NCBI GenBank assembly: GCA_903813345.2
Contig: CAIIXF020000010.1
Span: 19,169,181-19,233,180 of the forward strand
Source: Owenia fusiformis
Taxonomy: Eukaryota; Annelida; Polychaeta; Sabellida; Oweniidae
Length of the DNA: 64,000 bases
Direction: 5' to 3'
Below are positions 27,937-62,980 of this stretch, in pieces (position 1 is the first letter of the stretch; the number at the start of each line of letters is the position of its first letter). The notes beneath the pieces are model-generated. The model was given only the letters and a program-made list of their open reading frames with translations, had not been told where the DNA came from and ran no database searches. The position numbers were made by a program, and so were the translations under genes.

Positions 27937-28312
27937 TGAATTGAACAAAAAGTATTCAAAAAATTAAAACAAAAACCCCCGAAATAGATAAAAACTAAGA
28001 TAACCCTTTAATTTCATTAACAAGATCCTTTTTTAAAATCAGCCAAATTTTCCTTTGTATAATTACAATATTGAGAGACATAAACACGTTGTGTTGTGTG
28101 TATGTATGTATATATTTATTGCCCTTTATATAAAGGAGATGTATACAAATTGTGTAAATGTTAAATTGAAAATAATCATGATCATGTCATTATGTTCCAA
28201 TGAGGTTCGGATAGATGTTTCATTTCTTTCGGAATTTTTGGATGACTGGTTTAGGAGAAACGTGTGTTCAAAATCAAAAAGTTCGCCATATCGATACCCA
28301 TCCTTTCAATGT
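27937..28312. mobile_element. foldback MITE (TATCGATATGG family), right half of the interrupted copy
   Basis: Resumes with aagtattcaaaaaattaaaa and ends at gttcgccatatcgataccca, the family terminus. Together with 26880-27197 it reconstitutes one element split by the nested copy. Confidence 0.7.
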
Positions 28313-29535: not shown

Positions 29536-30559
29536 AAATTCAACACAAATCTGTCCGAAATCTGTTGCGATACTTTCCCTCTTCCTTTTAGTCATTTCGG
29601 ATCACGATCAAATAGAAGGTCGCCCTAATTGTGATGCATTTATAGTCGACATGGTGAATAGACGATTGAGTAACAACACCATTGATTTCTTTGTTTATTT
29701 GCCTAATGAGTGTATCTTTGTGATATATTCGGACATCAGGCCATTAGCATGTTGTTCAATAAAGTAGCGCACTCGAAATCAATCACAATTGATAAAAGCT
29801 GTGATTTCTTAATATGCCACACGACACAAAATCTAAATCCAACGATTTGAAATATACATAGATGTTCTTCACCTAAAATCAAAATAATTAGCCTCGAAAA
29901 AAATCAATTTATTTTTCAAATGTTTTTAGTTTCATACATTTCAAATGTATAATTCTAGTTTGACACTTAATTTTTCATTCATGGAATCAGGATAACTTTG
30001 AAAGTTTGAAATAACTTTTAAGTTTGAAATAACTGCTTGAAATGAGCTTGAAATTTAATGAATCAAATAAAATTATCGATTGGCCAACTTTGGGACCAAT
30101 GAAGTGAATGAACCTCTGCACACACGTCACATCCTTATCCCCACAAATGGTATATTGGAACTCGAGGACACATTGCGTCAATTATTTTCCATTATCTGGT
30201 ACTGAAGCTCAAGTTCGCTAATGGTATGTTAAATCGAAAGGATTTCATAAATAGAGCATCATCATCTTACTTTGATTTTCACCAGTTTATGTAATGAGTC
30301 CTGCTCGATCACGTTCCATATACACACACATTGGATACTGAAGAGCTCAAGTCAATACATTTGGAAAACCTCTTGAAAGGCTTTCATTAAGAAAGCATCT
30401 TCTTCATATGCCAGTTCATAATCGGATGCTCGATAACGTTGCATATACATACATTAACGAGATCATTATTTCCTTTCAGGTTTATAATCGAAGACAACCT
30501 AATTTAGCATCCGCTTATAGAAGGAAACTGAAGTCAACACAGATGGAAACAGCTTAAAA

Positions 30560-30785
30560 ATGATTATACAATATCACCTGCTCTTTCAAAGTTCTTTGAT
30601 GTACACTGTGATGTTGTTTATGGTCGTCATGGAGGTGCATTCTAATGTACAGGATATCAACTTTTGTGCCAACAATATCGAATGCACAGAGTCAAATTCA
30701 AAGATTTGCTCCGATGATTTTCTACTAGAGTACAAAGTTTGCCACTGTGGGGAATTTCATGTTGGGCCCAATTGTACTGAAAAGG
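30560..30785 (+). CDS. exon 1: signal peptide and EGF-like module
   Basis: The ATG in context TTAAAAATGA opens a strongly hydrophobic stretch (MYTVMLFMVVMEVHS), followed by six cysteines spaced C-x5-C-x7-C-x10-C-x-C-x8-C with the EGF signature CHCGEFHVGPNC. The donor AAAG/GTATGG at 30786 leaves phase 1, matching the acceptor at 46954. A 258-bp transposon begins 55 bp after the donor. Degenerate direct repeats (~115 bp) lie just upstream in 30220-30540. Confidence 0.8.
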
Positions 30786-33700
30786 GTATGGTATTTCATT
30801 TAGCTGTTGTCACAATTTAAAAAAACACACTGCACTCACCAGTGGCGGATCCAGGAACCAACAGGGGGGGGGGCAAATTTGAGGTCAGAGAAAAAACCGC
30901 CGCGCTTGCGCGGAAAAAGATTTTGGGCCCCTAAAACCGAAAAGTGGGCCCAAATGTTGCCCTTTTTGCCTTCTAAGGCCTAAATAAGGCCTTAGAAGGC
31001 CCAATAATGACCAAAAGGCCCACTTTTTTGGGCCTTTTTTCTGGGCTAACCTTAGGGGGGGGCGGGCCCCATGCCCCCCCCGGATCCGCCATAGCTCACA
31101 GGGACTATATCAATACACGCGTGACTGCTTAACGCTAAGGATACGGTACAACAAGAGGGTAAGGGAAATGGAACAAATTAAATATTTTCATCCTTAGTGA
31201 AGATTAGGTTGATCCTTACCCCGAGCCCAGAGTTTTTGTATATTAGATCTAAGGCTGTGTTCGCGAAACAACTACCGGCGACCGATGTGACTTTCAACTA
31301 AAAGGCTTTCAAGCTCAGTGGAACCTCCCATAGGTAACTCTGATCACTATGCTATCATTACTTAAGTTAGGGTCAACATTCCCTGGGAACCATCCCACCT
31401 TATATTGATGTCACTAATGCACGTGGTCCCGAAGAGATATTCGATAAAATGCTCAAATTATGTGCACATTCTATAGCAGAACCACTTTCATTACTATTTA
31501 ACATAATGTTTCACGTTTTCTCTTATATTTGGAAGGAGGGTACAATAGTTCCAATTTTTAAAAAGGGAGACAGACTACTAGTTACTAACTACAGACCAGT
31601 TACCCTTCTAAGTTTGGGGGGGGGGCGTGTATAGGGGGTTGTGGAAATCCATATACAATATTTTTCAGCTCTCTTTTACCATATACAATATTTTTTCACC
31701 CCTTTTATACAATATACAATATTTTTCACAGCTCTCATACCATAAACGATATTTTACAAAAGTTCAGGTGAAATACAATAAACGATAATTTTGAAACTGC
31801 TGTTTGGATATTTATAAGGAAATAATATAAAGAGAACCAATGTACTAGAGTAAATGTATTATCATAAGACAAATAGATTGCACATACAGACCACAAAGAC
31901 ACCAATCAGGTATATCCGATTGTAATCAGAAATTCTGTGATCCAATTTAATTATCAGGTATTTATGGAATAAGATTCATGACTTCTCTTTAGTGATTTCA
32001 CAACCTACTTTGACCAAAACACTCATGCCATAAAGATATTGACACTCAGTGTTAGTGTACCTGTTACTTATGACTTACTTTTCCATGAATTACATCCTTC
32101 ACAGGGAAAAAAATCCTTTAAACATAATTGATGCAAAATCGAGAATGTGGAATAAAAGATTCATCATGTGTTCTTTGAAAATAAAAGGAAGTAATGCGCT
32201 CGCCATTATGACCTCCCCATGAAAAAAAATTCATCTGATTTTTCAAAATGAGTATACTGCTTTTATCATTACATTAATATGCACACTGGTATCTCGTTGA
32301 CCTATTTTCAGCACTGTATTGATGTATTGGCCACTTATTAGGCTCATGGTTCAATCCTGAAGTGTAGAGGCGAGATTCCAAACCAGGAAGTATTTTTGTG
32401 TCTCTCAAAATCCATTTGCATCCTACGCATCTCTACGTCTTATCCAAATTTGATACTAAATAATGGAATATAATATTATAATCTTTTGAAAAAATGTCCA
32501 ATTTTTTAATTCAAAGTCGATTGCAAACTTCATATTCATTTATGTCACCCAATATTTCTGTATTTTCACAGTCCCCACAGCATCCACATAGTTCAGTACA
32601 AACTAGTCCGGATCCAACTTTTCTGCACTGGCATCTATTGTGTTGAACATAACAGGCAAGGTGGTATACTATGCTTTTGCTCTGTAGCCTCACTGACCAT
32701 TCTGAATTTGACTTAGCAATTTTTGTCAAATATTTCCTGACATCTTCACCAGCCCTTCTTAACTTTTTCCCAGATTTTGAGCAAAAAATACATGCTTCTC
32801 CTCTCCCTGCTTTAGTCTTATTTGAGGATCTCAGATAAACACTGGCACTTGTTTCAAGTGCTGGCACTGACTGTTGACTGGTTGATATTTTGGCTAGATT
32901 TTCTTGTTTTTTGTTGTACTTGTCTTCAAATCTTTTTAGTTTATTGATGTTCACTACTTCACTATAGCAGCCACGGCACCATAGATGACACATTTTTGTT
33001 CTCGTTATCTCTTTGGTTTGACAGTTTATCATTGATTTCAATGCATTTTGAATCTCCGTGTTGTACACGTACTTAAAGTCGTTGATAGAAGAGGTCACAT
33101 GATTTTGGATTTGGATTCTTGACTATGTTGGAAGAGTGGCAGGAAATGCAGAGTCTGACATGATTTAATTGGCCTTCCTGAAAAAAGGGAAAAGGAATCA
33201 CCATGTGTTTTAGGTGGGCAACATGTACATGATCTTTGATTGCTTTGTTCTGATGGGTCTTCAATACATATTTCTTAGAGGGTATTTGAAATGGTTCTTT
33301 AGATGGTTTAATTAGTCTGGCAGAAACTTCAAAGCTAATCGTTTTCTTCGGATTACAATGTTTTTTTAACTTATCAGCATGAATATTGGATTGGGATCTC
33401 AAAACCATTGGATGCCGGAGCGGCACCCTTGGGCAACTCTCTACAGAGCATTTCTTATACCCCCCTGATAAAATATACAGGGGGTACTATAAGACACCCT
33501 CATATCTCAGACACTAATAAATATATTAACTTGAAATTTTCAGGAATTGGTTTTAGTATGATGCTTGACACATGTGACAAAAATCAAGAAAAAATCTTAA
33601 TGCGTTGCTATAGCAACAGAAATAGCCACTATTTGTTACCGTAGAAATGCATTATTTTGCTGATTTTCATAATTTTCTTTATATTCTTGATTCTTAAAGC

Positions 33701-39700: not shown

Positions 39701-42700
39701 AGCGCGTTTGTCAAAGTACTGGTCCATAATGACATCATAATGGGGTTTTATTACAAAAAATTGAGATGCTGTCATTACATATACTTTTTAGTTTGACTGG
39801 ATATCATCGTCAACATGTACCTTAAAAATTGTAAACAATAACTTTATTTTAGTAAAAGTTTTCAATCTCAACATCAAGCTTAAAGGACATGGTCATGGCT
39901 GGTTGCTAAGGAAATAGTCTCCATAGCAATGGTGCTCAACATCATACCCAGCAACATGAAACTCCTGTTTACCACAATAAAATATTTATTAACCACTTTG
40001 AAACAAAAATTGCAATAGTAATGAAAACATTTCTTGCATATAGCCGCAAATACATAGAATCAAAATATTTCGAAAAGTAGGGTTGTCATTAGGGTAGATT
40101 AACGTCATTCTATTCAGATACCACCCTAGTTTCAATTATTCCTAAGACAAGATTGTTTTATTTTCATGCAAATCCAAAGCCATCGCTGGAAAGAGCACAT
40201 CAGAAATAACAAATGTAGCAAATGGCTTACCTACTTCCGGTATTTTGAAGAGGTAAAAAAAGTAATTGTAATGTGGAATTATATGTAAATTAGAGAAAAT
40301 AACAAAATTTGGGCTATTATGACATCACAATAGCTCAAAAATCAATTGTTAACCAAATTGTGTTGAATAACAAATTCCCCTATTACTTCCCTTTACTTCA
40401 CAATAAATATTATCAAAAATGATTATAATTAAAAAAATCTACAACAACTTTTGTATTTTTAGGCCCGTTGCAAGGTAAAATTTGTGGTTGCTATGGAAAT
40501 GGTTGCCCCTAGCAACAACATTCATGTTACAGATTTGGCAACATCAAAATTCTTATTCAGCACCTCAAACTCTATAAAGTACACTATGTTGCCAAGCTGT
40601 AACAAAAATTTCCCACGAGACCACTTAACAGCCCGGACTAATTTGCACATTTGATGAGATTAACCATTTGTGTCATTTGTGAAATTATTAAGTTTGCAAT
40701 CGATTCAGGTCATACTGTATTTTTGGTATTTCTGTGACAATCAATGGAATTCAATGGCCTCTATTGAGATCTGATGATAACCTCATGTTAAGTCAATGGT
40801 GCACAGCCTCATGTAAGTCAATACAATCTTACTGAACGGAATGACCCCTATCTCAGCTTATGTGTGCCCAAGCACTTTAATATTTTCCAAAGTATTATAT
40901 AACATTCTATTCTTCATGTTACACCTAAGAATGATTCATTTTGATCATGGGGATATTTGCCAATAATCGCACCTCTCCTTTGCTGAGGAAAAAATATGTT
41001 CACATAACACTATCAGGAGATAGTGATCATTCATAATGCACAATAATTTAGTAAAACAGTCACACGGGAAATAATAAGTATCAAAAACAATTTCGGAAAC
41101 AAAGGCCTTCACAAACTTTTCATGTAGATAATTCATTTTTGATTGGACTCTTTGAAGTAAAGGCAAAATGAGACTTGATTGTTAATGACAATGCACAATA
41201 ATTTTGTAAAACAGTCACCTGGGAAATAATAAGATTTGAAAACAATTTCAGAAACAAAGGACTTCACAAACTTTTATGTACAGATAATTCATAATTGATT
41301 GGACTCAGTCTTTGAAGTAAATCAAATGAGGAATGGGAATACAATTCCCTGGGAAACAAAACACAAATACTTTTTTATATGTTCAAAATGAACCATTTTA
41401 TTGATGCATACACTTAATAGTTTCATAAATAATATCTACAAAGCATGTCTAATAGTAATTTTCAATTCCAATGGTGAAACTTGCCTGGTTACGATAATAC
41501 GGGAAATCAACACGGGACGAGGATTGTTCACTGCCCTGGCTTACCTCTGAAGCCTGTACCTTGTAATCTCTTTATATAAGTCAGCGAGAGCCTGCGCAGT
41601 TTTAAACTTTGGCGAACACTTTAAAGACAGTCTAAGTCAAACAAAAGTGTGCCAAAATTGAGGAAATTTCCATAAAGGTCAAACCACTTGTTTCACCAAT
41701 GATTTCAAGGCAAAGATATCTAGTGATGCTTCTACTAACACATACGCTGTTTGAACACTTTATACTCAAATATTTTAATGATTTATCCCACAAACCCAGA
41801 AACACGAGAAGCCACAGGACCATATTTTTCATCAAAGTTGAGAAGAGTCAATGGCATTTGGCATTCTTATTCGAGATTTAGAGTGATTTTCTCTCAAAAC
41901 TTATTGATCTGGAATGTGGAACCAATTACTGAGATGCAAGTAGGTAGTTTCCAGTTATCGTAACCAGGCAAGTTTCACGTATTTCAAGCAGTTATTTCAT
42001 ATATACTAGGCACTTAGAGATAATATACAATACGTGTATCATGCCTCATTTTGATTATTGTGATATAATTTACAACAGAGCTTCCAATCTGACACTACAA
42101 CTTCTTGACAGACTCCACTACCAAGCAACTTGCCTTGTATCTGGGGCTATTTATGGCTCCAATACTATTAAAGTCTTAAATTCTTTGAATTGGAAGCCCT
42201 TATCCGATAGAAGAGTCGAACACCTAAAAATTTTCATTTTTATATGTAGTAATAATATCAATCCACCTGTGATTTACTCCGTAAATCAGTCAAGCCAGGT
42301 AACTAAGTCAACATTCGAAAATAAAAAACTCAAAAATCGTACATCTTTGATTTCCAAAATAATTTATGAGGTAGTTATTAAGATGATAATACACATTTTA
42401 AAGTATTAATTTTGAGTACATCTCGAATCCATTCTTAACAAAGCGTTCTCAAAATAAGTATTCGAAATGTTTGAGTTCGGGATGATAAAAGTACGTTAAG
42501 ATATACCGCTCCTTAACAAACTCCTTTGGGAACAAGATATAGGATCAAATGTATATTCTTCTTATTTACACCCTGACACATGCCAATGAATGTTACATAA
42601 GTAAATATCTCCGTTTTAAATAATTTTGTTAACGTTGTTCTCTACAGGTGCGATTTTTTATAATTGAAAAACAAAATTGAACATTTTGCATTTCTAAATT

Positions 42701-48700: not shown

Positions 48701-49859
48701 TGTGTCAATGTTTATTTTAAACCTGCCAGTTATGACCAGTTTGGAACAGGCTTCATAATGGTATGAAGAATATAACATATAGAAAATTTTATGTTAGGCT
48801 TGGAGGAAAATGTATACGCTGTATAATAGCAAATTGTTATTTATGACGTAATTTAATGGAAAAGGTCATTTTCATCTAATTTTTTCAAAGGATGGGTATC
48901 GATATGGCGAACTTTTTGAACACACGTTTCTCTTAAACCAGTCATCAAAAAAGTCTGAAAAATTTACACAGTGTCAATCTAATGGTCATCTTTTGAATGG
49001 TAACAATATAAATTGAAATATATATATATACTTTCATCTATATTGTTTTAGAAAACACATCAAACACTTGTTTTGTTCTTGGTATCATGTTTCCAGAGTG
49101 AAATGAAACATCTTTCCGAACCTCATTGGAACAAAACGACATAAACACAACATGTTTAGGTCTCTCAATATTGTAATTGTACAAAGGAAATTTTGGTTGA
49201 TTTTAAAAATGTATCTTGTTAATGAAATAAACGGTTTATCTTGATTTTTATCTATTTTGGGGGGATTTAGTTTTAATTTTTTGAATACTTTTTTAAAATC
49301 AACCAAAAATTCCTTTGTATAACTATAATATTGAGAGGTCTAAAAACATGTTGTATATGCTATTTTGTTCCAACAAGATTCGGAAAGACATTTTATTTCA
49401 TTCCCAAGAATTGGTAGAAAGGAGCAAAAACAATTGCACTAAAAAAACATAAAATGCTAACAAAAACAGTTATATAAAATATTTCTAAATAATTTTCGCA
49501 TTAAATTGTTGTCAATCAGTCAACATTACATAAAATACCGTGTTTTTTACAGAATGTTTTCAATGATCGGTTTAAGAGAAAAACATTGTTGAATTCAGTT
49601 ATCCATATCGATACCAATCTTTTCCACCGTCATTCACTATTTTTACACCATGTGCCTCCAAGAGTTAAGTAATATCATACACAATTTTGAATTTTGAATT
49701 TCTTTACAGAGGGTATATATCGGTAAATTTGGTTTAGCATTCATGAAAAATATTCGAAAGTATGTTACAGAATGGTTACTATGAAAGGTCATAGGTCACA
49801 TTTTGCCGCGTGACCCAATAAAAAAAATGCGCCCACCCACACGATGTTTCATAACTACT

Positions 49860-49902
<43 letters not shown>

Positions 49903-52900
49903 TCACACATTTATTTCATATATACATACTACAGCATTCTATAAATATTTTTTGTGTTTACAATTGATGGGCTAAAGGTTGTCGCCAACATAAGTTATAT
50001 ATCAAGAAGTAATACAAAAAGCTTATTCTTATGATGCTTTATCTACAAAACAAGTTCTTATGATCTTTTTATCTACCAAATTTACTGTTGTTTTTTTTAT
50101 TGATCCAGTATTATTTATGGATACTGTGCTTGTTACGTGTATTTCATATGTAGTTGTATGCATCTATGGAATAACCTCATTCATACATCCCTCATTCATA
50201 CATTCATTCACTCATTCAATCATCTTTTCATTCGTTACACATTTTACAATATGTTAAATATGATCTTTGGTTACATATCTATTTATTAGACTCCAGATGA
50301 AATCTGGAGTCTATTGTTTTCGTCAGTTTTCTTATTAGACTCCAGATTGAAAATCTGGAGTCTATTGTTTTTGCCTGTATTCTTATTATTATTATTATTA
50401 GAATGCCGGTTTCGAAGAAACGGCATTCTATAGTTTTCGCCTTTTTCTTATTTTTATTATTATTATTATTATTCCACGCAAGATTTCTCCGCACACACCG
50501 ACATGTCAGTTAATTAGCATATACCATCAACCTTGACATGTTCCTGGGCTACAGGGAAATGCCTTCATTTTTTTAATTAGCCACTCCCTAATTAGCCAAG
50601 GTCAAATCGCAAATTTTTACATTTTTGCACGTACAAGGAGTAACCATTTTTATTTTTTACCCAAAATTTGCATATGCCATCCCTCACAATTGCCATTTCA
50701 CATATATTCCGGGTTTTAAAATTGGGTGCCCCAAATTTGAAAAATGGGGCACCCCAGTGGGGCAAAATTTGAAAACTGTGTATCCGATCCCAATTCTGAG
50801 CAGATATAAAGAATAGAAGCCCCTGATTCCAAATATGCTTTCGGTTTTGGAATCCGACCTCTGAGTGACCTTGAAAAGGTCAACAAGTTCAAAAATCAAA
50901 ATCGCTCAAATTGATTCCAAATTGGTACCATTGTATTACACTGTACTCGGATAGAGTAAATTAGGTCACCATTTTGACCTTGACCTTTGACATTGACCTT
51001 CAAATGACCTCAAAGTTGAAAACTAGGATTTTCATTCCAATTCTTTGCAAGTATGAAGTATGGATGTCCCTGATTCTAAATATGCTTGTGGTTTTGGAAT
51101 TTGACCTCCGGGTGACCTTGAAAAGGTCAAAAAGGTTAAATTGCTAAAATTGCTCAAATTGATTCGAAATTGGTACCATTGTATTACACTGTACTAAACT
51201 AGAGTAAATTAGGTCAACATTTTGACCTTGACCTTTGACCTTCACCGTAAAATGACGTAAAACTTATTTCTTGTTTTACCTGTTCAAGGAGCCACTGTAG
51301 TTATTTTTTGCATGCCTTACTCTTCCCATTCAACATATCTCTAGGGTTTATAATTTGGGTGATTTTCATTTTCATTCCAATTCTTTCCTAATCTATATAG
51401 GGGGCACGCGACAGCGCTTTAAAGCGCGTCTGGGAGGATAAGGGTACGGGTTTTTAAATTGAGTGCCAAAATTTCAAAAATATGGCAAAATATGATATCA
51501 AATATGCTTTCGGTTTTGGAATTCGACCTCTGCGTGACCTTGAAAAAGGTCAATTGTGCACCGAATTTGCTGCTGCGGCGAGGAACGGCATTCTACGAAA
51601 TCGCCCCCGTGGCGATTTTAAATGTCTAGTTATTTTTCTTAGCAAGATATCTCAATAACTAGAAGACTTAGGGTAAATCTGTTTACATGGTCAGTTAGGG
51701 TATGTGACCTAGTTTCTGGGAAATGAGGTCAAATTTTTATCTAGGTCAAAGGTCAAAATCTAGGTCAAATCTACAAATTGTCAATTATCTTTGTTATGGT
51801 TAATTATTTTTTCTCAATTTTTTTTTCATCGTGTAGCTAAGAAAGAGCGCTTTTGAGTGAACTAATTTTTTTTAATGTAACTTTTAAGAATTTTGAGAAA
51901 TTTGACTTTAAAAAAGGTGGAATTTTTCAAATGTTCCAAATCCATTAAAATTGGTATTAATTTAATAGGAAATTGTCTCAAGATTCTGAATCTGAAAACG
52001 AAATTGTGATCCGACTCCCGGTTCAGGAGTTAAGACATTTTGAAATTTTGAAAAAATGATTTGATGATATCCCCATGTCATGTCAATCGGACCGATATTT
52101 TTTTATTTCTCATTAATATCAAAGTTCTAATTAAGGTTTTAATAGAAAATTTTCTCAGGATTCCGAATCTGAAAACAAAATTGAGATCCGACTTCCGGTT
52201 TACAAGTTATGGGCTTTTGAAATCTCAAAAAAATCCCACCGCTGCCACCAAATTGTAACAATCTCAACCCTTTCATTAATATCAGATCTCAAAATGGTTT
52301 TGAGATAAACAATCTATATCTGGAGTCTTGAATTGAACTTGTTCAATTTCTCCAATCTAGTTCTTCTTCTTCTTCTTCTTCTTCTTTTTCTAAACCAGTT
52401 TTCTCAATAACCATAAGGTCTTCAGTAAAGTCAATCATTTGGTCAATTTAGGTTCAGTATCTAGTTCCTCGGAAATTGGGTCAAATTTTTATCTAGGTCA
52501 AAGGTCAAGAACTAGGTCAAATCCAGTACTTTGTCACTTTTTTAGATTTTCTCAGTAGTCCTTCAATATTTTTGATCCGGGTTTTTTTCATTGTGTTCCT
52601 CATAAAAAAGTAGGAAACCTAGGGTCGATTTAGTTTTTTGATATCTCAAACCGATTTCGAGATATCATTGTCCGAAAACGAGGTCCAAAAAAAGTTCTCC
52701 GAATCAAATGTCCAGGTTATTAGTCTTATAGGAAATTCTCTCAGGATTCCGAATCTGAAAATCAAATTCAAATCAGACTTCCGGTTCGGAAGTTATGGCG
52801 TTTTCAAAGCTCAAAAATTGCTAAATTTGGTACCCATGTTAAGTCAATGGGAAAAAAAGATTTTTTTGAAGTAAAAAATACGAAATATAGACTGAGTTCA

Positions 52901-55900
52901 GCTATATAATGAAAGCTTTTAAAAGAATGGGACCTCAAAAGTTATCTAGCTTTAAAATTTGGACATCAAAATGCCTAGGTCAAAATCAAGGTCAAATTCA
53001 AAGTTTTTTCTTATTTTTGCGATTCTGACACTACAAATTAATTAAATTCTTCGAAATTTTGTATACATGTAGCCAAGAGTGTGCTAATAGTGTTAGCTTT
53101 TTGCCGTCAGAAAGTATTTTGCCCCACTTTTGAGATATGGTGTCCGAAAAGTAGGTCAAAATGAAAAATTCTCCAAATTTGACGTTTGAATTATGAATTA
53201 AGTAAAAAATTTTCTCAGGAGTCCGAATCTGCAAACCAAATTTCAATCCGACTTCTGGTTCGGAAGTTATGACATTTTGAAAGCTCAAAAATCGCTAAAT
53301 TTGGTGCCCCATGTTATGTCAATGGGAAAAAAGATTTTTTTGAAGTGTAAAATACAAGATATAGACTAATTACAGCTTAAAATAATGAAAGCCTATGAAA
53401 GAAGGGAACCTCGAAGGCTACCTAATTTCAAAATTTGGACACCAAAATCCCTAGGTCAAAATCTAGGTCAAATTCATAGTTTATCCTTATTTTTGCGATT
53501 CTGATACTACACTTTAATTATATTCCTCGAAATTGTGTATACATGTAGCCAAGAGTGTGCTTATAGCGTAAGCCTTTTGCCGTCAGAAAGTATTTTGACC
53601 CACTTTTGAGATATGGTGTCCGAAAAGTAGGTCAAAATAAAAAGTTCTCCAAATTTAACGTTTGAGTTATGAATTAAGAATAGAATTTTCTCAGAAAACC
53701 AAATCTGCAAACCAAATTTCGATTCGACTTCCGGTTCCGAAGTTATGACGTGTCCGAAAAGTAGGTCAAAATAAAAATTCGCCAAATTTAACGTATGAGT
53801 TATGAATTAGGGGTAGAATTTTGTCAGGAATCCGAATCTGCAAATCAAATTTCGATTCGACTTCCGGTTCGGAAGTTATGGCGTTTTGAAATTTCAAGAA
53901 AAATCGATCTGATATGGTATATTGGTAGAAAGTCAAGAGTAGAGAAGAAAATATTGAAAAATGCATTCATCCTTCCTTTCTGATCCTATCCTATCTTTCC
54001 TATCTACCCTTGCTCCGTATCCTCTCCTTCCTATCCTTCCTATTCTATCCCTTCTTCCTATTCTATTCTATCCTTCTTTCCTATTCTATCCTATCGTTCC
54101 TTCCTATTCTATCGTATCATTCCTTCCTTTTTCATCCATCCATCCATCTTTTTCTGGATAACTAAGCTTATTTTGGATGACTTGGCTTATTCTGGATGAC
54201 TCGGCTAAAAAAAGTCTAGATCTGGAGTCTGAAATTGAACTCGTTCAATTTCCAAAATCTAGTTTTTATTACTGTTACACATAATTTTTTTATTATGTCA
54301 ATGGAAAATATAAAGTTAATACAAAAATAAAAACAATACATATTCTTATAACTTTTCATAAATGACTGCTAATTCATCATTCTTATTAAAAAAAGTGGAC
54401 CTCTCTATATAATCTTTGATATATGATTTGAACTCATAAAAGGTTACATTTGTTTTTTCTAGAAAACTTTTGTATATACAATATTTCATAATAATGATTG
54501 CTAAATTCATTACATTATGCTCATCGTCTTTAGGTTTATGACCATATAAAATATCTTTGTCATGTAGTTTTACTTTATCATTAATTACAAATTTAGAAAA
54601 TTCACTCCACATTTCTTTTGCTTTTTTACAATCAACAAACATATGTTTCAGGGTATGGATTTCATTGCAATACAAACATTTTTGTGTATCAGCTAATTTC
54701 ATTTTAAACAATTTATCTTGACATATAAGTATATTATGGAGTATTTTAAATTGAAATATTTGTAATTTTGGATCTTTAGTAATTTTCTTTGCTAACATAA
54801 AATGTGATTGAATATCTTCTTCTTCAATAAATTGTTTTACTCTTTCGAGTGAAACAGGTATTTCAAAATTACTTTGTATCAAAGCATTATGTGCTTTTTT
54901 GCATGTGACATTTTCTACAGTGACATTACTCTTTCTTTCAACTCTAGCAATATTTGTAATTTGACCTCTTAAAATTTTTTTCCAAACCGCAGGTATTGCT
55001 GATTTTAAGCCATTAAAATCCATATCTTTGATTCTTAAATTATATTTTTCTTGTATAACATTCTTCTGTAAAAATTGACCATTTTCATCCACAATATGCT
55101 TTATTTTACAAATACCATGTTTGTACCAATCCTTATGAAAAACTGATTTATTTGCAATTAATATATTTTGATTGTTCCATATTATCTCTTCCTGGATTTC
55201 CTCTACTTCTTCTGGTTGACTGTTATCCTTTATTTTGTTCCAATCTTTTACAACATTCTTGTAAAATGGATAAATTTTAGTTAAATCTAAATGTTTAAAA
55301 TCATAATTAGACTTAAAAAGGAGATCTTGTCCAAATTGTGATAGTAACATTCTTGGTATTGCTTTCCATGCACCATCTTCATCGTTGGATAATCTTTTAA
55401 CCCAAACTGCTTTAAGCGCCTGGTCTAACAATTGGAATTCTGTCATTTTCAGGCCTCCGTCTTGAAGTTCACCAATTAACGTTTTTTTCTTAATCTTTGG
55501 AGTCTTATTTCCCCATACAAAATTCCATATAACATCATCAATTTCTTTAATATATTTCTCTGGGATTATTGATATTGCTGATATATTTGTTATTTGGGAA
55601 ATTCCAATAGATTTTATCAAAAGTATTCTTCCTTGTAAACTTAAGTTTCTGTATGTCCACATATTTAGCTTATTCTTTATCTTTCTTATTTTATCTATAA
55701 CATTGAATTCTAACTCAACATTTTGATCATATGAAAAACAATATCCCAGTGCTTTAGCTTGCCTAACATTTTGTATATCATTAAATGTTTCTGTGTTATT
55801 TTTTGACTGTCCAATCCACATTAATTCTGTTTTACTTTTATTAAGTTTTAATCCTGAACATATTTCAAATCTATCTAAAATATTTATAGTTTCTTGCACT

Positions 55901-58900
55901 GACTCTTTATCACTTAGGGTTGCTGTGATGTCATCAGCATATTGAACTGACTTTATTTCTAAGTCTTGCACTTTTATACCATGTATGTTTTTATTTCTTT
56001 GAATTTCTAGACTTAGTATTTCTATTATCATTATAAATAACATGTCAGAAAGTGGATCTCCATAACTACTAAATGTAGAAATTCAATTTTTTCGCACATT
56101 GAAACTACACTCAATTATGCAACTCCACAATAAGTTTCAGATGGCTTGCTCACCTTGGTGCACATTTATGAGCTGGCATAACTGGATTTTACACAAAAAC
56201 GACACTCACCTTTGTAAAATAATTTTTGAAATAAGTTATAATGATTTTATCAACGACAACTACATTGTTTTGTGTTAATCAAATGGACCTTATTTCTCTG
56301 AAAGTACAAGTCAAAGTCATATTAGTATTTACAAAGTTATGTTACAAAATTTGAGTGGCATTTTTTGTGTAGAATCCATGTGTCGTCCACTGCAAAGCAA
56401 TGGACGACATTTAGAGTAAATATTGTAACGCTTATAAAATTTGACCCACTTGAGCTACACACTTGAGCATACAAATTTTTGAAGGTGCTTTCGCATTATG
56501 TCTCCTTTAAATGTGACAAGTCTATGTTAATAAACAAACAAGTCATGCAACGTAAGGTGGGTGTCATTTTTGTGTCACCCTTTATTAAATGATTTAAGCC
56601 GCAATTGTAGCAAGTAAATGTGTAAATATTAAATACATAAGGTATTTTGCAATTAAAAACTTATATTGAAATCAGTGTTCATTCGTGAAATTGTCTACCC
56701 TTTGCATTCGTTTGACTTCACTTCTTAAAAGAGAGCTTAACTAGACTCTGCACGCAGGGTAGAAATTGTCCACATTGTCATAAAAAGCAAGCATCGTGTA
56801 TATAAAGCCATCTTAACATAATCATGTCATATTTATTTTTCTAGTTAAATTGACTATCGTTAAATTATCTAATTTACCTTTAATGCATTAAAAATACAAG
56901 ACATATTTGGTACATTCATCATTTTGTATTCCAGTTTACGAGTGTAATGGAGTGCCTTCAAATGTTGCCCATGCCACAAGGACGTTTAGTACCATGAACA
57001 CATATTCCGACACATACGAATACAGGTGTGACATAGGCTACCGTATTGACGCATCCAACAATGACTTCCAATATATCCGTTGCCGTGGAGGGGTATGGCA
57101 GTCTCCGAAACCGTGTTACTTGAAGGATTGTGGAACGCCTCCATCTGATTCGAATGCAGTGGTTACTTATACAAACACAACTTACGGAAGTTCAGTTAAT
57201 TATATGTGTCATTTAGGATACAGCACTTTTGGTTCAATATCCATTAACATCTCGTGCCTTGATACGTCCCTCTGGGAGCCTTATATCTCCTGTGGACCAC
57301 TGTCATGTGGCCCGCCACCATTGGACTATATGAGTACGGTGGACTCTGATGGAACGTCAATTTCTGATATAAGCAATGTTCCAGAAGCGTTAACTCTGTA
57401 CGATGCCCATTTAACATACACTTGTAAAGTAGGCTATGGAATAAATGGATCCGCTGATATACTTCTCGAATCAATCCGCTGTATGGCCGACGGAAACTGG
57501 CAGACCCATATCTATTGCTCCCATTGGCATTGTGGTCTACCGGATGTCGATAATAATGCAACACAATTTGGACTAGCAGATTATTATTTCTCCAAAGTGC
57601 GATTTGTGTGTCTACCCGGGTATCTAACAGGAGGGGACGGTGGTTTAACGTCATATACTATCACTTGCGATGTTAACGCGACGTGGGGATCGCATACACC
57701 GTGTTTAAAGACATCTTGTCCCGGTGCATATGATATGGATTCCAATGCAATAATAACCGTTTATGGTAATTTATTTGGGGACATTGTGAGGTACACCTGT
57801 CATCCTGGTTATGGTTTGTCTGGATTAAATATTCAGAGTGAAGATATATATTGTCTTGCTAACAGGACGTGGTCAAGTCATATTCTCTGTGAGAGAAGAT
57901 ACTGTGGCTATCCCGCCGATGATGATAATGCCGCGTATTCTTTCATCGCAGGATGGTACGGGGACAATATAACCTACACATGCCACAGTGGGTATAGACT
58001 TGGCATTAATCAGATCGTTAGTGAGGACGTAATTTGTCAAGAAGATGGCACGTGGTCTGTTCACCAACAATGCTATAAACTTTCGTGTGGTGAACCATGG
58101 TTTGACCCATACGCCACAATGAATACAACTGATCCGGATTACTTGTTCGAAGCAGATGTAACATACAATTGTGTTAATGGATATGGGATTGGATATAATG
58201 GTCTGAGCACGGAAACAATTACCTGTTTAGACACAGGTGACTGGTCACATCATACCCATTGTGTACGGACGCCATGTAATATCCCACCGGCCGATACTAA
58301 TGCTAACATAACGTATCTGTCAACATCGTACTCGGATGTTGCAAACTACACATGCAATCTCGGATATCGACTATTTGGGAATGGAAGCAAAATGGAGTCA
58401 ATCGTTTGTGGAGCAGATGGCAACTGGTCACCACATGCTCCTTGTCTAGAAGTATCGTGTGGAACTCCAGTTGATGACCCCCTGGCCAATGTTTCTTGGA
58501 CATCTGAGTTATACCTCAGCATAGCGAGGTACGATTGTCTATACGGCTATGTGACTCTTAATGGAGCTACATATGAAATAACTAGTTGCTCTGCATTCGG
58601 CAACTGGTCTATTCATACACCTTGTACAAAAATCTCATGTGGATTACCAGTAATTGATCCAAACTCAATTTCAACAGCGAGTAATAATAGTAACCTGTAC
58701 GGATCTAATGTTACATACATGTGTAACCATGGTTTTAGAATAGGAGACGAGACTAATTACACGTTTGATGTAATTACATGCCAAGGAAATGGGAGTTGGA
58801 GCATCCATACGCCCTGTCAACGTATTTCGTGTGGGACTCCACCTAAAGATTATAACTCTGTACTGTATGCAAGTGACAACTTGTTTGAATCAGTTACACG

Positions 58901-61900
58901 TTATTCATGTAACACTGGCTTTTACATTGGCAATACTTCAAACCAGTATGAGAATATAACGTGTCAAGGAAATGGCACCTGGAGTAGTCATACCTCTTGT
59001 GAAAAAGTACCATGTGGAATTTCTTTACCCGACCCCAATGCTGTTCTAACAACTGGTGATAACTTATATGGATCAAACACTACCTATACATGTAATGATG
59101 GTTATCTAATTGCCGGTACAGATGATCTACAGGAAATCATAAGTTGCCAAGCAGATGGGACGTGGACCAATCATATAGGATGCCAGCGAGTTACATGCGG
59201 AAGTCCAGTAATTGATGAGAATTCTCTCATGACTCCAAGTGACAATTTGTACGAATCTAATGTTACATACACCTGTAACACTGGTTACCTTATTGGAGGA
59301 GATATGGCCAGTCAGATTGAAACAATCACATGCCTAAAAAATGGTTCTTGGACAGATCATACAGTATGTTTGCCTATCTCGTGTGGTATACCTCCAATCG
59401 ATGACTTCTCAACATTGACACAGTCAAATAATCTTTTTGAATCCAATGTAACATACACTTGCCACCCGGGTTACCTCATTGTAGGTTTTAATCAATCTCA
59501 AGACACAATCACGTGTCAGTCTGATGGAAATTGGACATCACATATACCATGTCAGCGTTTGTCATGCGGGGATCCCATTAGTGACCCGAACGCAGCAATA
59601 GTCTCAACTGATAGCTTGTTCGAATCAACTATAACATATATTTGCAACGCTGGATATTTAGTTGGAGGAAATACCAACAGCTCAGAAACGATCACTTGTC
59701 AAGAAGATGGTCGATGGAGCATTCATACGATGTGCTTACCAAGATCTTGTGGAACGCCAATAATTGATGTGCACTCAAATATGACAACAAATGAAAACCT
59801 TTATGGATTGAACGTAACCTATACTTGTGACACTGGCTACCTTATAGGTGGTAACCTCACTAAGAAGGAAATGATATTTTGTGATTTTGATGGGAATTGG
59901 ACAAATCACTCATTTTGTGAGAAACTTTTGTGTGGACAACCACCGATCGATGATAATGCAAATACCACCGTTGGTGATAACAGGTTTGGAAGTGTTGTTA
60001 CATACACATGCCTCGAGGGTCATATTTTAAATGGCACCAGTACTATAGAAGAGAATGCCACATGCAATAGTGATGGTGATTGGACAGCACATACACCGTG
60101 TGTCCCAGGATTATGTGGAGGTATAAACATATCTCAGAATGTAACCGTTACTGTTGACAGTATGTTTTACACCGACACAGCTCATTTCTCATGTAGTATT
60201 GGATACGTGTCACTTTCTAGTGGTTCATCGTCAGGAACTGTCACATGTTTGTCTAATGGAACCTGGAGTGATGACATTCAGTGTGTACCAGTATCATGTG
60301 GTCCTCCACCTATAGATCTAAATTCAACTGTTACATATGCAGATACAGTGTATAACTCAGTAGCCATATATGAATGCCATAGTGGGTTTCAAACACAGGG
60401 CTCTAGCAATGATTCAATTATATGTCAGTCTGATGCAACTTGGAGCAGTCGTGTGAATTGTACTCATGTGTTTTGCGGGCCACATCCTTCAGATCCATAT
60501 GCAGACAGTTTGCTTATAAATAACTCAATAACAGATGAGGCAATCTATACATGCAAGCCGGGAACTGCTTTATCAAATGGAGCTGTAAGCAACAACAGTA
60601 CATGCCTCGTCAATAACACGTGGTCATCGCGTGACCGCTGTTATCCAATCAACTGCAACAATCCACCAGAAGACGTAAATGCAAACACCAGCCGAAGCTT
60701 TTCTGAAGGATTGCATCTTGTAACATATACATGTATCAAAAACTTCTACATTGGTGGAACTGGGAACGACTCAGAAACAATATCATGTTCTAATTCAGAA
60801 GGTTGGACAATACATACTCCCTGTTCCCTTGCTGATTGTGGCCCATGGCCAGTAGACCTTAGGGCTTCAGCAATAAAGTCGTCTGGGACATTGCTATATG
60901 CTGTAGTGGATTTCAAATGCCACGAGGGATACACTCTAACTGGAAGAGAGGACGGACCAAAATACAAAACGAGCACCTGCCTCCCCACGAGACAGTGGAT
61001 GGCCATTCCATATTGCAAAGGTTCGTAAATAAATAACCATATGTAAACCAAACGGGACCTACAAAGAAAATGAAAAGTACTTATCTTTATTGAAGTTCTT
61101 TATATTCTGAAAGAATGGGTATCGATATGGCGAACTTTTTGAACACACGTTTCTCTTAAACCAGTCATCAAAAATTTCTGAAAATCTTACAAATTGTCAA
61201 TTTAATGGCCACCTTTTAAATGGTAGCAATATAGTTTGAAATAGATATACATACTTTATCTATATTGTTTTAAAAACACATCAAACACTTGTTTTGTTCT
61301 TGGTATCATGTTTCAGAGTGAAATGAAAAATCTTTCCGAACCTCATTGGAACACAACGACATAAACACAACATGTTTAGGTCTCTCAATATTGTAATTGT
61401 ACAAAAGAAATTTTGGTTGATTTTAAAAAAAGTATCTTGTTAATGAAATGAAAAGTTTTTCTTGATATTTATCTATTTTGGGGGATTTTGTTTTAATTTT
61501 TTGAATAGTTTTTTAAAATCAACCAAAAATTCCTTTATATAACTTTAATATTGAGAGATCTAAAACATGTTGTATATGCTATTTTGTTCCAACAAGGTTC
61601 GGAAAGACATTTTATTTCATTCTCAAGAATTGGTAGAAAGGAGCAAAAACAATTGCACTAAAAAAAAAAAAAAATGTTAACAAAAACAGTTATATAAAAT
61701 ATTTCAACATTACATAAAATACCATGTTTTTTTACAGAATGTTTTCAATGATTGGTTTAAGAGAAAAACATTGTTGAATTCAGTTCTCCATATCGATACC
61801 TATCCTTTCATGGCTTGTTTACGGTAATGTTGTGTGATGCTCAACAAGCAATACTATGTTCAGTGATATTAAGTCTACCATTACAATCCATTTAAAACAA

Positions 61901-62980
61901 CACTGCTCTAACGGGAGGAAATATTAAAAAAATTCAATTCCTTTAGTACTAAATCTCGAGCAAGTTCCCGCTGACATCGCGAGCAATGAGCTCATGCGGA
62001 GTCTTTAGAGATATGATAAAATATAGTTATAGCTGAAGAATGCCGTTGCCCTGCAAATGTACTTGATAGCCCCCGTGTTCATAATAAATACACGGGAATG
62101 GTCTACGCTTTGCATTGATTTAGAAATAACGATCAAGTTCCCGCTTAAAACGCGAGCGTAGTCATGATCCTTTTTATAGCCCTGGAACATGGACAAAAGG
62201 CATGGGTACATTGCTCGCGATGTCAGCGGGGCCTTGATAGCTCCCGTGTTCATAGTAGTAAATACACGGGAATGGTCTACGCTTTGCATTGATTTAGAAA
62301 TAACGATCAAGTTCCCGCTGAAAACGCGAGCGTAGTCATGATCCTTTTATAGCCCTGGAACACGGACCAAAGGTTAAGAACACACATTACCATTACACCA
62401 CAGTAATACTTATAAGATATACGTTAACAATTACCGTTCGAGTATTACTTTTATAGTTAAAATAGAGACAAGCATTAGGATATACATACCTCATAATCAC
62501 GGTGTACAGCCCAAATGCTTCTACATTCACATCAAAGAGTTTTATCACTGAATCCAAACTCAAATAACGAGACCCTAAACAACAGCCTGTGATACTTTAT
62601 TTGCTCACGTTTTCAACGGAAACTTGCTTGCGATTTCGAGATTTACTACGGGGCCTGGATCATACAGGTAGGCTTAAGGTGAATCGCACTTGAGAGCGAT
62701 TAAGATTGATATGAGCATATATCTTAAATATTTCAAATGTTACATGTAAATCCATAACGTTCTTGTTTTAGCTGCCAAAGAAAGAAGCTACAAGCGCGCC
62801 AGGAAGATCGAGTTCCCACCAGAGGAAGCCGAGTATGCAGTAGTTCTAGGCGGTTCCTCACTCGTTATAGCTATTAGTTTTGTGGCGTTTATCGTGATTA
62901 TGGATACACCTGCCCTCTTCAAGGATATGAGGGATAAAATGTGTAGATCTCTAAAAACTCAGATAACACAACATCGATGA
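30560..62980 (+). CDS. selectin-like membrane protein: signal peptide, EGF, C-type lectin domain, 22 sushi modules, TM, tail
   Basis: Five exons with matching phases: 30560-30785, 46955-47084, 47308-47519, 56935-61020 and 62772-62980. Joined they give 1620 aa. Order: hydrophobic signal peptide (1-28), a six-Cys EGF-like module (about 34-75), a C-type-lectin-like domain (76-189), 22 CCP/sushi modules (about 190-1551), a transmembrane helix (1574-1595) and a 25-residue cytoplasmic tail ending TQITQHR. The same module types make up vertebrate selectins, where lectin precedes EGF; here the order is reversed. Many N-x-S/T sequons in the sushi region fit a glycosylated cell-surface protein, probably an adhesion or recognition receptor. 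The individual exons are secure. Linking exon 1 across a 16-kb repeat-filled intron rests on phase agreement and domain logic only, so it is the least certain join. Confidence 0.75.
30841..31098. mobile_element. GC-rich MITE with AGTGGCGGATCC termini
   Basis: Left end agtggcggatccagg, right end ggatccgccat: an inverted pair characteristic of a widespread invertebrate MITE type. The interior is GC-rich with nested hairpins (ggccttagaaggcc, gggcccaaa...tttgggcc). It sits 55 bp after the exon 1 donor of the selectin-like gene. Confidence 0.75.
31401..31618 (+). pseudogene. LINE reverse transcriptase fragment (N-terminal RT block)
   Basis: The frame reads ARGPEEIFDKMLKLC, then EPLSLLFN, then WKEGTIVPIFKKGD and NYRPVTLLS. 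These are RT blocks 0-1 of jockey/CR1-like non-LTR retrotransposons. It ends abruptly in a G-run near 31617; no YADD block follows. A dead fragment inside intron 1 of the selectin-like gene. Confidence 0.85.
31640..31800. repeat. short tandem repeat (catatacaatatttttca)
   Basis: The word catatacaatattttt recurs about four times with small changes (atatacaatatttttcaca, ataaacgatattttaca), spaced 30-40 bp, directly after the LINE fragment. Confidence 0.6.
32511..33426 (-). pseudogene. element-encoded Cys/His-rich protein, frameshifted
   Basis: Two overlapping minus-strand frames: 33426-33073 (117 aa) and 33098-32511 (195 aa). They overlap by 26 bp, suggesting one gene broken by a frameshift near 33085. 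Features seen: LCISCHSSN, CHLWCRGCYSEV, ACIFCSKSG about 35 residues before IVYHLACY, and a C-terminal CQCRKVGSGLVC...CGCCGDCEN block. CxxC...YHxxC followed by a CxC-like cluster is a pattern I associate with transposon-encoded proteins of invertebrates; no named family is assigned. The stop lies just inside the left terminal region of the large element, as expected for an element gene. The N-terminus (RHPMVLRSQSNIH) is repeated in inverted orientation at about 36090-36180. Confidence 0.6.
33330..33685. repeat. left arm of an inverted repeat flanking the GC-rich minisatellite
   Basis: Strings such as ctacagagcatttcttatac, cagggggtactataagacac and gttgctatagcaac recur as reverse complements at 35835-36180. 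The outer part of the arm overlaps the start of the Cys-rich frame. Confidence 0.85.
33990..35570. repeat. GC-rich minisatellite (gcccccagaagctatac)n
   Basis: Several dozen degenerate units of ~21-24 bp on the theme ggcccccagaagctatacag, with a higher-order repeat of roughly 640-690 bp (for example 34534 onward resembles 35130 onward). It interrupts AT-rich DNA and is bounded by the inverted arms. The long frames through it (PQKLYxGP-type repeats) are consequences of the repetition, not genes. Confidence 0.92.
35835..36180. repeat. right arm of the inverted repeat
   Basis: Reverse complement of 33330-33685 with moderate divergence. On the plus strand it encodes a second copy of the start of the Cys-rich protein (PHRHPVVLRSQSYIHVDKLK), so the two copies face away from the minisatellite. 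Confidence 0.85.
36340..36840. repeat. TATGATA-type microsatellite, left block
   Basis: About 500 bp of degenerate (gatatgatat)n with variants such as tatacgatatg. The same repeat resumes at 37394 after a LINE tail. Confidence 0.93.
36841..37393 (+). mobile_element. 5'-truncated LINE tail inserted in the microsatellite
   Basis: An open frame through 37160 reads FRQHLFTHNF, then CKCGHSTESTKHLLLHCPLF, the Cys/His C-terminal motif of CR1/L2/jockey-like LINE ORF2, and stops at TAG. A 3' UTR of about 230 bp follows, ending atgaaataaaggaaatataa and aaattgaattgaa, directly joined to the resumed gatatgatat repeat. The 5' end starts inside the microsatellite. Confidence 0.85.
37394..37590. repeat. 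TATGATA-type microsatellite, right block
   Basis: Continuation of the 36340-36840 array after the inserted LINE tail; includes tgatcaatatgattgatatg variants at its right edge. Confidence 0.88.
37600..38165 (-). repeat. copy of the hairpin-rich repeat family (reverse orientation)
   Basis: The reverse complement of 37620-37960 matches 52400-52680 (cctcgttttcagacactgat against atcattgtccgaaaacgagg). The 37980-38140 part holds three perfect or near-perfect hairpins of the type agactccaga-N-tctggagtct and one half of the ccggcattct hairpin also seen at 50400. Confidence 0.75.
39355..39480 (-). repeat. tRNA-derived SINE-like element
   Basis: On the minus strand, tgggcgattgcttaacatga is followed by gggaggttgtggattcgatt and cccaccgag. 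The GGATTCGATTCC box-B match and spacing are tRNA-like. The following agatggagtg and ataggatttaatcctat region may be its tail. Not a functional tRNA. Confidence 0.55.
41030..41335. repeat. two-unit direct tandem duplication of ~157 bp
   Basis: Both units contain aatgcacaataatt, aaaacagtcac, gggaaataataag, aaacaaagg, cttcacaaacttt and attggactc, in the same order, offset by about 157 bp. Confidence 0.8.
41473..41980. mobile_element. MITE with 24-bp perfect terminal inverted repeats
   Basis: The left end gtgaaacttgcctggttacg continues to ataa; the right end 41957-41980 is its exact reverse complement. The ~0.5-kb interior has no recognisable coding sequence. Confidence 0.8.
42041..42409 (+). 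pseudogene. LINE reverse transcriptase C-terminal fragment
   Basis: The frame reads YCDIIYNRASNLTLQLLDRL, then GAIYGSNTIKVLNSLNWKPL and RRVEHLKIF. This is the post-RT segment seen in CR1/L2-like LINEs (YCS.IY... L..LQ ... L.WLPL..RR). It starts and ends without the rest of ORF2. Confidence 0.8.
42410..44893. other. intronic, nothing recognised
   Basis: AT-rich sequence inside intron 1 of the selectin-like gene. Open frames up to ~130 codons exist on both strands around 43400-43880 but overlap one another, lack recognisable domains and have no splice-site support. Confidence 0.4.
44894..45478. mobile_element. MITE with ~30-bp imperfect terminal inverted repeats
   Basis: The left aatagtacaataacgtcatttct and the right agaaatgacgttattagtatt are inverted. 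The interior is itself palindromic (atttgatatcaactcggcga; cattcgcttcgctcactcgt), and the acgtcatttct...gaaatgacgt ends are typical of an invertebrate MITE type. Confidence 0.75.
45795..45895. repeat. diverged relative of the foldback at 21145-21330
   Basis: Shares actattcatatttaaatgagtt and the following pattern cagtag-c-g--cgatagtt-cattcg with the right arm of the intron-4 foldback of the ASMT-like gene. Only one arm is present. Confidence 0.6.
46253..46907. mobile_element. foldback MITE (TATCGATATGG family)
   Basis: Starts aaaggattggtatcgatatg and ends cgccatatcgataccatttt. Complete copy, ~655 bp, ending 48 bp before exon 2 of the selectin-like gene. Confidence 0.8.
46955..47084 (+). CDS. 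exon 2: N-terminal half of a C-type-lectin-like domain
   Basis: Acceptor ATATTTCAG/TCCATT, donor TTAGA/GTAAGT. It encodes HYYLVDKDLLYEEGRVYC and then ESAGLGKMALIHS, the usual start of a CTLD (aromatic pair, first Cys, Gly). Phase 1 in, phase 2 out, continuous with exon 3. Confidence 0.85.
47308..47519 (+). CDS. exon 3: C-terminal half of the C-type-lectin-like domain
   Basis: Acceptor TTTTCTAG/TGGTAG, donor AAAGA/GTGAGT. It encodes NAFVGGK, the WDNGMWLDY and WVDWSENLQPET strings typical of the long loop, then GGWEDKKF and RILCQK. Only the outer disulfide cysteines (residues 94 and 187) remain. The inner pair is replaced by Val165 and Phe179. The EPN/QPD carbohydrate motif position reads QPE. 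Confidence 0.85.
47520..48888. other. intron 3 start, nothing recognised
   Basis: AT-rich intronic sequence after the lectin exons. No domain-bearing frame and no clear repeat family was noticed. Confidence 0.4.
48889..49622. mobile_element. foldback MITE (TATCGATATGG family)
   Basis: Complete ~734-bp copy, from aaaggatgggtatcgatatg to ccatatcgataccaatcttt. Its two halves pair along most of the length (tcaatattgtaattgtacaaaggaa against tcctttgtataactataata). Confidence 0.82.
49863..49900 (-). other. 38-nt poly(A) tail (poly-T on the plus strand)
   Basis: An uninterrupted run of 38 T on the plus strand, preceded on the minus strand by AATAAA 11-12 nt before the tail. It marks the 3' end of the minus-strand LINE insertion. 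Confidence 0.85.
51229..51241 (-). promoter_or_regulatory. perfect DR1 nuclear-receptor half-site pair
   Basis: The minus strand reads AGGTCA-A-AGGTCA. Direct repeats of AGGTCA spaced by one base are the consensus for RXR heterodimers, HNF4 and COUP-TF. It lies inside the hairpin-rich repeat; function is unproven. Confidence 0.35.
51743..51755 (+). promoter_or_regulatory. perfect DR1 nuclear-receptor half-site pair
   Basis: The plus strand reads AGGTCA-A-AGGTCA inside the hairpin-rich repeat, in the recurring phrase ctaggtcaaaggtcaa. Confidence 0.35.
52495..52507 (+). promoter_or_regulatory. perfect DR1 nuclear-receptor half-site pair
   Basis: A second copy of the ctaggtcaaaggtcaa phrase, again AGGTCA-A-AGGTCA, about 750 bp after the previous one. 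Confidence 0.35.
54346..56043 (-). pseudogene. LINE ORF2 C-terminal part: reverse transcriptase (YADD) and Cys/His tail
   Basis: 565 codons open from MLFIMIIEIL. It includes VQYADDITATLSDKES, the catalytic RT box, then SGLKLNKSKTELMWIG, NKTPKIKKKTLIGELQDGGL and a C-terminal KCLYCNEIHTLKHMFVDC zinc-like motif. The arrangement resembles L1/Tx1-type non-LTR elements. Upstream only GDPLSD remains before a TGA, so the endonuclease and the first half of RT are missing and the element cannot be active. The frame itself has no internal stop, pointing to a fairly recent insertion. Confidence 0.9.
56935..61020 (+). CDS. exon 4: 22 tandem sushi (CCP) modules in a single exon
   Basis: The acceptor TTGTATTCCAG/TTTACG and the donor CAAAG/GTTCGT frame a 4086-bp open exon, phase 1 at both ends; the frame extends 5' of the acceptor only through a TTG, so it is internal. 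It encodes 22 modules of about 60 residues. Each has four Cys and a Trp, in the pattern CGxPxxD...YTCxxGY...ITCxxdGxWsxHxxC. Modules 10-17 are especially alike (NLYxSNVTYTCxxGYLIGG), suggesting recent internal duplication. CCP modules mediate protein-protein recognition in complement regulators, selectins and adhesion proteins. Confidence 0.95.
61110..61809. mobile_element. foldback MITE (TATCGATATGG family) in the last intron
   Basis: From aaagaatgggtatcgatatg to ctccatatcgatacctatcc. Complete ~700-bp copy starting 89 bp after the sushi exon donor. Confidence 0.82.
62060..62375. repeat. two-unit direct tandem repeat (~167 bp)
   Basis: Both units contain tgatagc-cccgtgttcata, aatacacgggaatggtctac, gctttgcattgatttagaaa, cgatcaagttcccgct and gcgagcgtagtcatgatcct. 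A third partial relative (gcaagttcccgctgacatcg) lies at 61966. Located in the last intron of the selectin-like gene. Confidence 0.85.
62772..62980 (+). CDS. exon 5: transmembrane helix and cytoplasmic tail
   Basis: Acceptor CTTGTTTTAG/CTGCC in phase 1, in agreement with exon 4. The exon encodes a basic stretch (KERSYKRARK), FPPEEAEY, then a 22-residue hydrophobic helix (AVVLGGSSLVIAISFVAFIV and two more), then a short basic tail with stop TGA at 62978-62980. It is too short to show in a length-filtered frame scan but has the right phase and content for the membrane anchor. Confidence 0.8.

Follow-up and report, generated by a model that had tools for sequence, protein, structure and literature searches.

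A predicted Owenia fusiformis membrane receptor with an EGF-like module, a C-type lectin-like domain and 22 sushi modules

Introduction

Selectins carry their extracellular modules in the order C-type lectin-like domain (CTLD), EGF, complement control protein module (CCP, or sushi), with up to nine CCPs, and the lecticans, which are secreted proteoglycans with an Ig/link head, a GAG region and one CCP, carry in their G3 region the order EGF, CTLD, CCP. The module set described for vertebrate selectins comprises the CTLD, EGF and CCP modules, a transmembrane (TM) segment and a short tail. A Fugu versican fragment is listed with EGF, CTLD and CCP, and versican G3 has itself been termed selectin-like.

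Several invertebrate proteins have been brought into the same circle. The Furrowed/CTL-X proteins of insects, termed selectin-like, are exemplified by beetle TcCTL15, a homologue of fly Furrowed with a CTLD, many CCPs (11) and one TM segment; the recombinant beetle protein bound bacteria and caused them to agglutinate, and the second CCP of Furrowed is said to mediate homophilic adhesion (PMC9954269). A ghost-moth paper likewise compares fly furrowed to selectins. Bivalve "P-selectins", assigned through SwissProt similarity and SMART, include a type A whose text description gives mostly CCPs together with a CTLD or EGF (PMC9484242), and CTLD proteins that contain sushi domains also appear in a survey of bivalve lectins. 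In rotifers, proteins surveyed as secretory lectins place EGF directly 5' of the CTLD, an arrangement that their authors say was previously undescribed in Lophotrochozoa (PMC8878817).

Here we analyse a predicted gene within a stretch of 64,000 nt from the annelid Owenia fusiformis. The whole stretch is referred to as the window, and all coordinates are counted from its first letter. On balance, the sequence favours one gene encoding a type I membrane glycoprotein of the plan EGF-CTLD-CCP22-TM, which would probably act as an adhesion or immune-recognition receptor.

Results

Joining five exons on the + strand (30560-30785, 46955-47084, 47308-47519, 56935-61020 and 62772-62980) gives 1620 codons closed by a lone stop. 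Each of the four introns begins with GT and ends with AG, and successive junctions fall in phases 1, 2, 1 and 1; every exon junction between modules is in phase 1, and the single phase-2 intron sits within the CTLD. The claim of the first-pass annotation that the five exons have compatible phases and keep the frame at every join is thus confirmed. The anatomy it proposed is also borne out in the sequence, the EGF by cysteine spacing only: the predicted protein runs from a signal peptide through an EGF-like module, a CTLD and 22 CCPs to one TM helix and a tail of 25 residues. The window contains a conspicuously long open reading frame at 56892-61028 (1378 codons). Given the open frame and the codon-position pattern described below, a pseudogene is unlikely.

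The first coding exon (30480-30785, counted from a candidate acceptor) has its ATG at 30560, 42 bases 3' of an in-frame stop at 30518. Because the candidate acceptor at 30480 is strong (score 10.4), a further non-coding exon upstream is suggested. The N-terminus is hydrophobic, as judged by hydropathy and with no predictor, and a signal peptide of about 28 residues (30560-30643) was placed by eye. It is followed at 30665-30775 by six cysteines with EGF-like spacing, a pattern matched once across the six frames of the window. This spacing was reached by 867 of 200,000 shuffles of the 47-residue mature part of exon 1, and by 6 of 200,000 once a PROSITE-type C-x-C..G..C motif was also demanded. 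Neither Pfam nor a search of PDB sequences to E 10 reported an EGF; the domain search suggested at first pass recovered the sushi and lectin families, with the E-values given below, but missed this module in Pfam. The EGF-like call, made from cysteine spacing without profile support, is a weaker point of the predicted architecture.

The CTLD is encoded in two halves, the N-terminal one by exon 2 (46955-47084; phase 1 in, phase 2 out) and the C-terminal one by exon 3 (47308-47519). A single Pfam Lectin_C match (E 1.4e-6 on the 114-residue CTLD, positions 5-107 of the 107 in the profile) crosses the join of the two exons; within a 326-residue piece the E-value is 2.8e-5, and both matches lie above the gathering score. 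The domain has two cysteines only. Aligned to E-selectin and aggrecan by MAFFT, it shows lysine at the C2 position, phenylalanine at C3 and WED opposite WND; a QPE at the EPN/QPD position was placed by eye only, as MAFFT did not align it there, and the alignment is poor in the middle of the domain. With C2 and C3 absent and the motifs non-canonical, sugar binding may have been lost. Oyster CgCLec-4, with QPE/WHD, is tabulated as Ca-dependent in a review whose text does not contain WED (PMC12842671), and ligand binding by the predicted CTLD is therefore possible. In a PDB search with the domain the CTLDs among the matches listed were collectins, at E 0.17 or worse and ranked under chance-like matches; among its 40 matches up to E 1 there was no selectin or lectican.

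Exon 4 (56935-61020; 4086 bp, flanked by phase-1 introns on both sides) encodes the 22 CCPs, the first and last of whose cysteines fall at 56943 and 61016. Every module has the four cysteines and a tryptophan between the third and fourth, and the array is regular: all 21 linkers are of 4 residues (those of human factor H are given as 3 to 8 residues; PMC2806952), 21 of the 22 modules share a C3-C4 spacing of 11 residues, and 16 a C1-C2 spacing of 25. Pfam matches Sushi at E 4.6e-120 over the exon, with 20 stretches passing singly, and module 1 with the start of module 2 matches at 1.7e-5. Matches to StcE_b-sandwich, Nab2-zf4, Bacteriocin_II, DUF7626 and DUF515 all fell under the cut-offs and were discarded as noise. 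When all six frames of the window were searched with a profile made from these 22 modules, the next best match reached only E 0.14, and one scan of viral contigs with exact peptide patterns found no relatives of the exon 4 protein.

Amino acid identity between modules ranges from 16 to 60%, and its mean falls slightly with distance, from 0.376 at lag 1 to 0.34 at lag 11. Across modules 10-17, identity at codon positions 1, 2 and 3 is 0.60, 0.60 and 0.41, and where residues are identical the codons coincide in 45% of 763 pairs, where codon usage predicts 44%. Saturation of the silent sites alongside retained residues indicates that the CCP array is old and coding-constrained. Recent tandem amplification of the stalk was rejected, since Tandem Repeats Finder reports no array in exon 4, silent sites are saturated and identity is nearly flat with distance. 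The modules are also rich in N-glycan sequons: 47 lie inside modules, compared with 33 ± 3.5 after column permutation (none of 2000 permutations reached 47), and the array including linkers has 48, compared with 21 ± 4 in plain shuffles, figures that are not strict probabilities because the modules are related to each other.

The fold of the stalk was modelled with AlphaFold for modules 13-15, using an alignment of 18 other three-module stretches from exon 4. The model has a mean pLDDT of 93.8 and a pTM of 0.73, and Foldseek returned 457 matches for it at E up to 10. The best 50 of the 457 are all CCP-containing proteins, including complement regulators and beta2-glycoprotein I as well as PAPP-A, factor XIII B, C1s and MASPs, with E-selectin at rank 49; the best TM-score among the matches listed is 0.69, for 5o35_C (a complement complex) and 2wii_C (factor H 1-4 with C3b). 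By sequence, the CCP array matches 17 PDB sequences at E up to 1e-10, namely beta2-glycoprotein I and complement regulators. The three-module model and its fold matches suggest that the stalk would be extended.

These matches bear on the main rival reading, according to which the protein is a complement-type regulator or receptor, its CCP array binding an activated C3/TEP-like protein as CR1 and factor H do, and its lectin head either targeting that activity or vestigial. A tandem CCP array is common to the complement regulators (RCA) and to the predicted protein, and the number of modules lies in the range spanned by factor H, with 20, and CR1, with about 30. The match of the array to beta2-glycoprotein I and complement regulators, and the frequency of regulators among the fold matches listed, fit such a role, and an oyster CTLD-CCP protein is reported to work with MASP and C3. 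However, the PDB matches to complement regulators do not discriminate, because these proteins are so well represented among solved CCP structures that any CCP array would be expected to match them, and the fold matches listed also hold PAPP-A, factor XIII B, C1s, MASPs and, at rank 49, E-selectin. We consider a complement-type role unlikely, and prefer an adhesion or immune-recognition receptor.

The array of this predicted receptor is followed by exon 5 (62772-62980), with a juxtamembrane stretch, the TM helix (62834-62902), the tail and the stop codon. Mean hydropathy over 19 residues reaches 2.55 in the helix, the maximum of the protein, compared with a maximum of 1.0 in the sushi array. 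A terminal-exon search of 61060-63900 gave 53 phase-1 candidates, the seven most hydrophobic of which all include the exon 5 TM segment and differ in their acceptors; the acceptor given for exon 5 is provisional, further in-phase AGs lying within the same exon. Any signalling would require a partner, since the tail of 25 residues contains no tyrosine and charged residues are missing from the TM helix. A candidate polyadenylation signal AATAAA stands at 63005-63010, just 3' of the stop codon, a hexamer that is frequent by chance at 35% GC. Reading through donor 4 (61021-61034) gives Gly-Ser-stop with an AATAAA at 61028-61033, likewise common by chance at this GC content; a secreted isoform through intronic polyadenylation at this site is conceivable.

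Whether these exons belong to one gene was judged from several kinds of evidence. Splice and codon scoring, which used generic splice matrices and included a control strand, was only moderately informative. On this score alone, exon 2 ranked 17th and exon 3 15th of 238 candidates. Several of the candidates outscoring exon 3 are overlapping variants of it; exon 2, whose acceptor is weak (percentile 0.79), was equalled or outscored by 8 of the 189 control-strand candidates. Because these ranks are mediocre, the predicted joins are based on the Lectin_C match that crosses from exon 2 into exon 3, on compatible phases and on a lack of better partners. Between the acceptor and the next upstream stop there is no in-frame ATG for either exon 2 or exon 4, and both therefore require an upstream exon.

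Searches for that start exon covered 12.1-30.5, 30.8-46.9, 47.5-56.9 and 15.0-46.9 kb. Hydrophobic first exons ending in phase 1 were exon 1 and two others. One of these (19195-19321) has a donor score similar to that of exon 1 and a more hydrophobic core, without the EGF pattern, and the other (40654-40708) codes for 18 residues. Exon 1 is the best of a few phase-1 start candidates within the stretches searched. Under the thresholds used, 47520-56900 contains no hydrophobic phase-1 first exon. Pfam reported no family at E up to 0.1 in the three + strand frames of 30786-56934, nor did it report exons 2 and 3, which lie unspliced inside that interval; these intron negatives are weak, because domains split over short exons, such as exons 2 and 3, escape detection.

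These observations also speak to the possibility that two or more genes have been merged in the model, exons 4-5 coding for a membrane protein with CCPs only and exons 1-3 forming an EGF/CTLD gene of their own. Intron 1 measures 16.2 kb and intron 3, which holds a reverse-transcriptase fragment, 9.4 kb; such long introns, the mediocre exon scores and intron scans blind to short split exons all leave room for a merger, and CCP-only "type-B P-selectins" are described as the commoner form in bivalves (PMC9484242). Against it, exon 4 starts in phase 1 and lacks an ATG in its frame between the acceptor and the stop upstream, no alternative first exon of the kind sought was found in 47520-56900, and exon 3 requires a phase-1 exon downstream, the next domain-bearing exon recognised being exon 4. 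We regard a merger as improbable, and a single gene as the better description of the locus.

Compared with vertebrate selectins, the predicted single-gene product has its EGF-like module before the CTLD, and the selectin order CTLD-EGF-CCP-TM is not found. Its CTLD comprises two exons with a phase-2 intron, whereas that of Fugu selectins is described as encoded by the 5' exon, and it has two cysteines, WED and (by eye) QPE where the E-selectin CTLD has four cysteines, EPN and WND. By its sequence features the predicted protein thus falls outside the vertebrate-type selectins, in module order as well as in the exon structure and the cysteines of the CTLD. The first-pass description of the protein as selectin-like with swapped EGF and CTLD was apt as regards a membrane-anchored, selectin-like module set, but the order itself is already that of lectican G3.

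That EGF-CTLD-CCP order is common to the predicted protein and the G3 of aggrecan and versican, whereas the aggrecan CTLD has four cysteines and WND rather than two and WED. A true lectican relative, tethered to the membrane and with a head descended from the G3 module set, would account for the module order and would fit an intron-split CTLD, but it is highly improbable, since Pfam finds no Ig or link domain in the predicted protein (the + strand intron scans are empty too, but weak) and the CTLD, without C2 and C3, matches no lectican among its 40 PDB matches up to E 1.

The predicted receptor also has counterparts of architecture in invertebrates. TcCTL15 shares with it a CTLD, many CCPs and one TM segment, and differs in having a coagulation factor 5/8 C domain, WND and half the CCPs; its description includes no EGF, and its authors report no signal peptide (PMC9954269). 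Pfam finds no coagulation factor 5/8 C domain in the Owenia protein. The bivalve type A proteins resemble it in their CCP-dominated composition, as far as a text description that omits order, counts and TM segments allows the comparison (PMC9484242). The rotifer proteins share the EGF directly before the CTLD, and no CCP array or TM segment forms part of their description (PMC8878817). The first-pass suggestion of an undescribed receptor therefore stands for the exact EGF-CTLD-CCP22-TM plan, for which we found no paper in the open-licence PMC literature, supplements excluded, but comparable invertebrate CTLD/CCP proteins have been published.

Other features of the window lie in the introns and flanks of the gene. 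The motif GGTATCGATATGGCGAAC has 9 matches with up to 3 mismatches, compared with 0.02 expected, mostly as facing pairs; the sites lie at 46267-46904, 48895-49615, 61118-61800 and 27215-28298, with pairs in introns 1, 3 and 4, and one pair ends about 50 bases 5' of the exon 2 acceptor. The pairs probably represent an inverted-repeat element family, with one element per pair inferred. The reverse-transcriptase fragment of intron 3 (54349-56082, - strand) has a zf-RVT domain, is LINE-like and runs antisense, and intron 4 contains a 93-bp direct repeat (62082-62174 and 62256-62348; 98% identical). Two overlapping frames at 32514-33486 (- strand), the first with a cysteine-rich end, have no Pfam match and give the impression of being transposon-derived. 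Further upstream, divergent genes at 2873-4312 (- strand) and 9947-12043 (+ strand) encode aromatic amino acid lyases of histidine ammonia-lyase-like type; their two long frames match PF00221 at 6e-104 and 1e-131, and the short frame 11675-12043 has no match. No Rfam family reached the gathering score within the window, and no tRNA gene was found in it using the bacterial code.

Discussion

According to the model that we favour, the CCP array would form an extended, N-glycosylated stalk, roughly 60-90 nm long as estimated from usual module sizes, that lifts the EGF/CTLD head well away from the membrane. The head, the outer CCPs or both would bind glycans or protein partners carried by microbes or by other cells, and the role may be adhesion or immune recognition by analogy with that reported for insect Furrowed/CTL15. 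The model predicts that joint skipping of exons 2 and 3 would keep the frame, and that retention of intron 4 would yield a secreted form.

A bolder proposal is that the gene represents an undescribed old receptor class, assembled independently of selectins for adhesion or recognition at very long range, with an EGF-first lectin-like head devoid of the C2-C3 disulfide carried on a rod of 22 CCPs, ancient and encoded by one exon, whose linkers are uniform and whose N-glycan sites have been selected. Taken as a whole this proposal is doubtful, and the sequence points instead to a credible new arrangement of familiar parts, not a new kind of system.

If transcribed as modelled, the gene would extend the selectin-like proteins by an EGF-first form and would bear on whether selectin architecture had a single or a repeated origin. 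Its uniform linkers and glycan sites would make the stalk a testable case of a rod that projects a lectin-like head.
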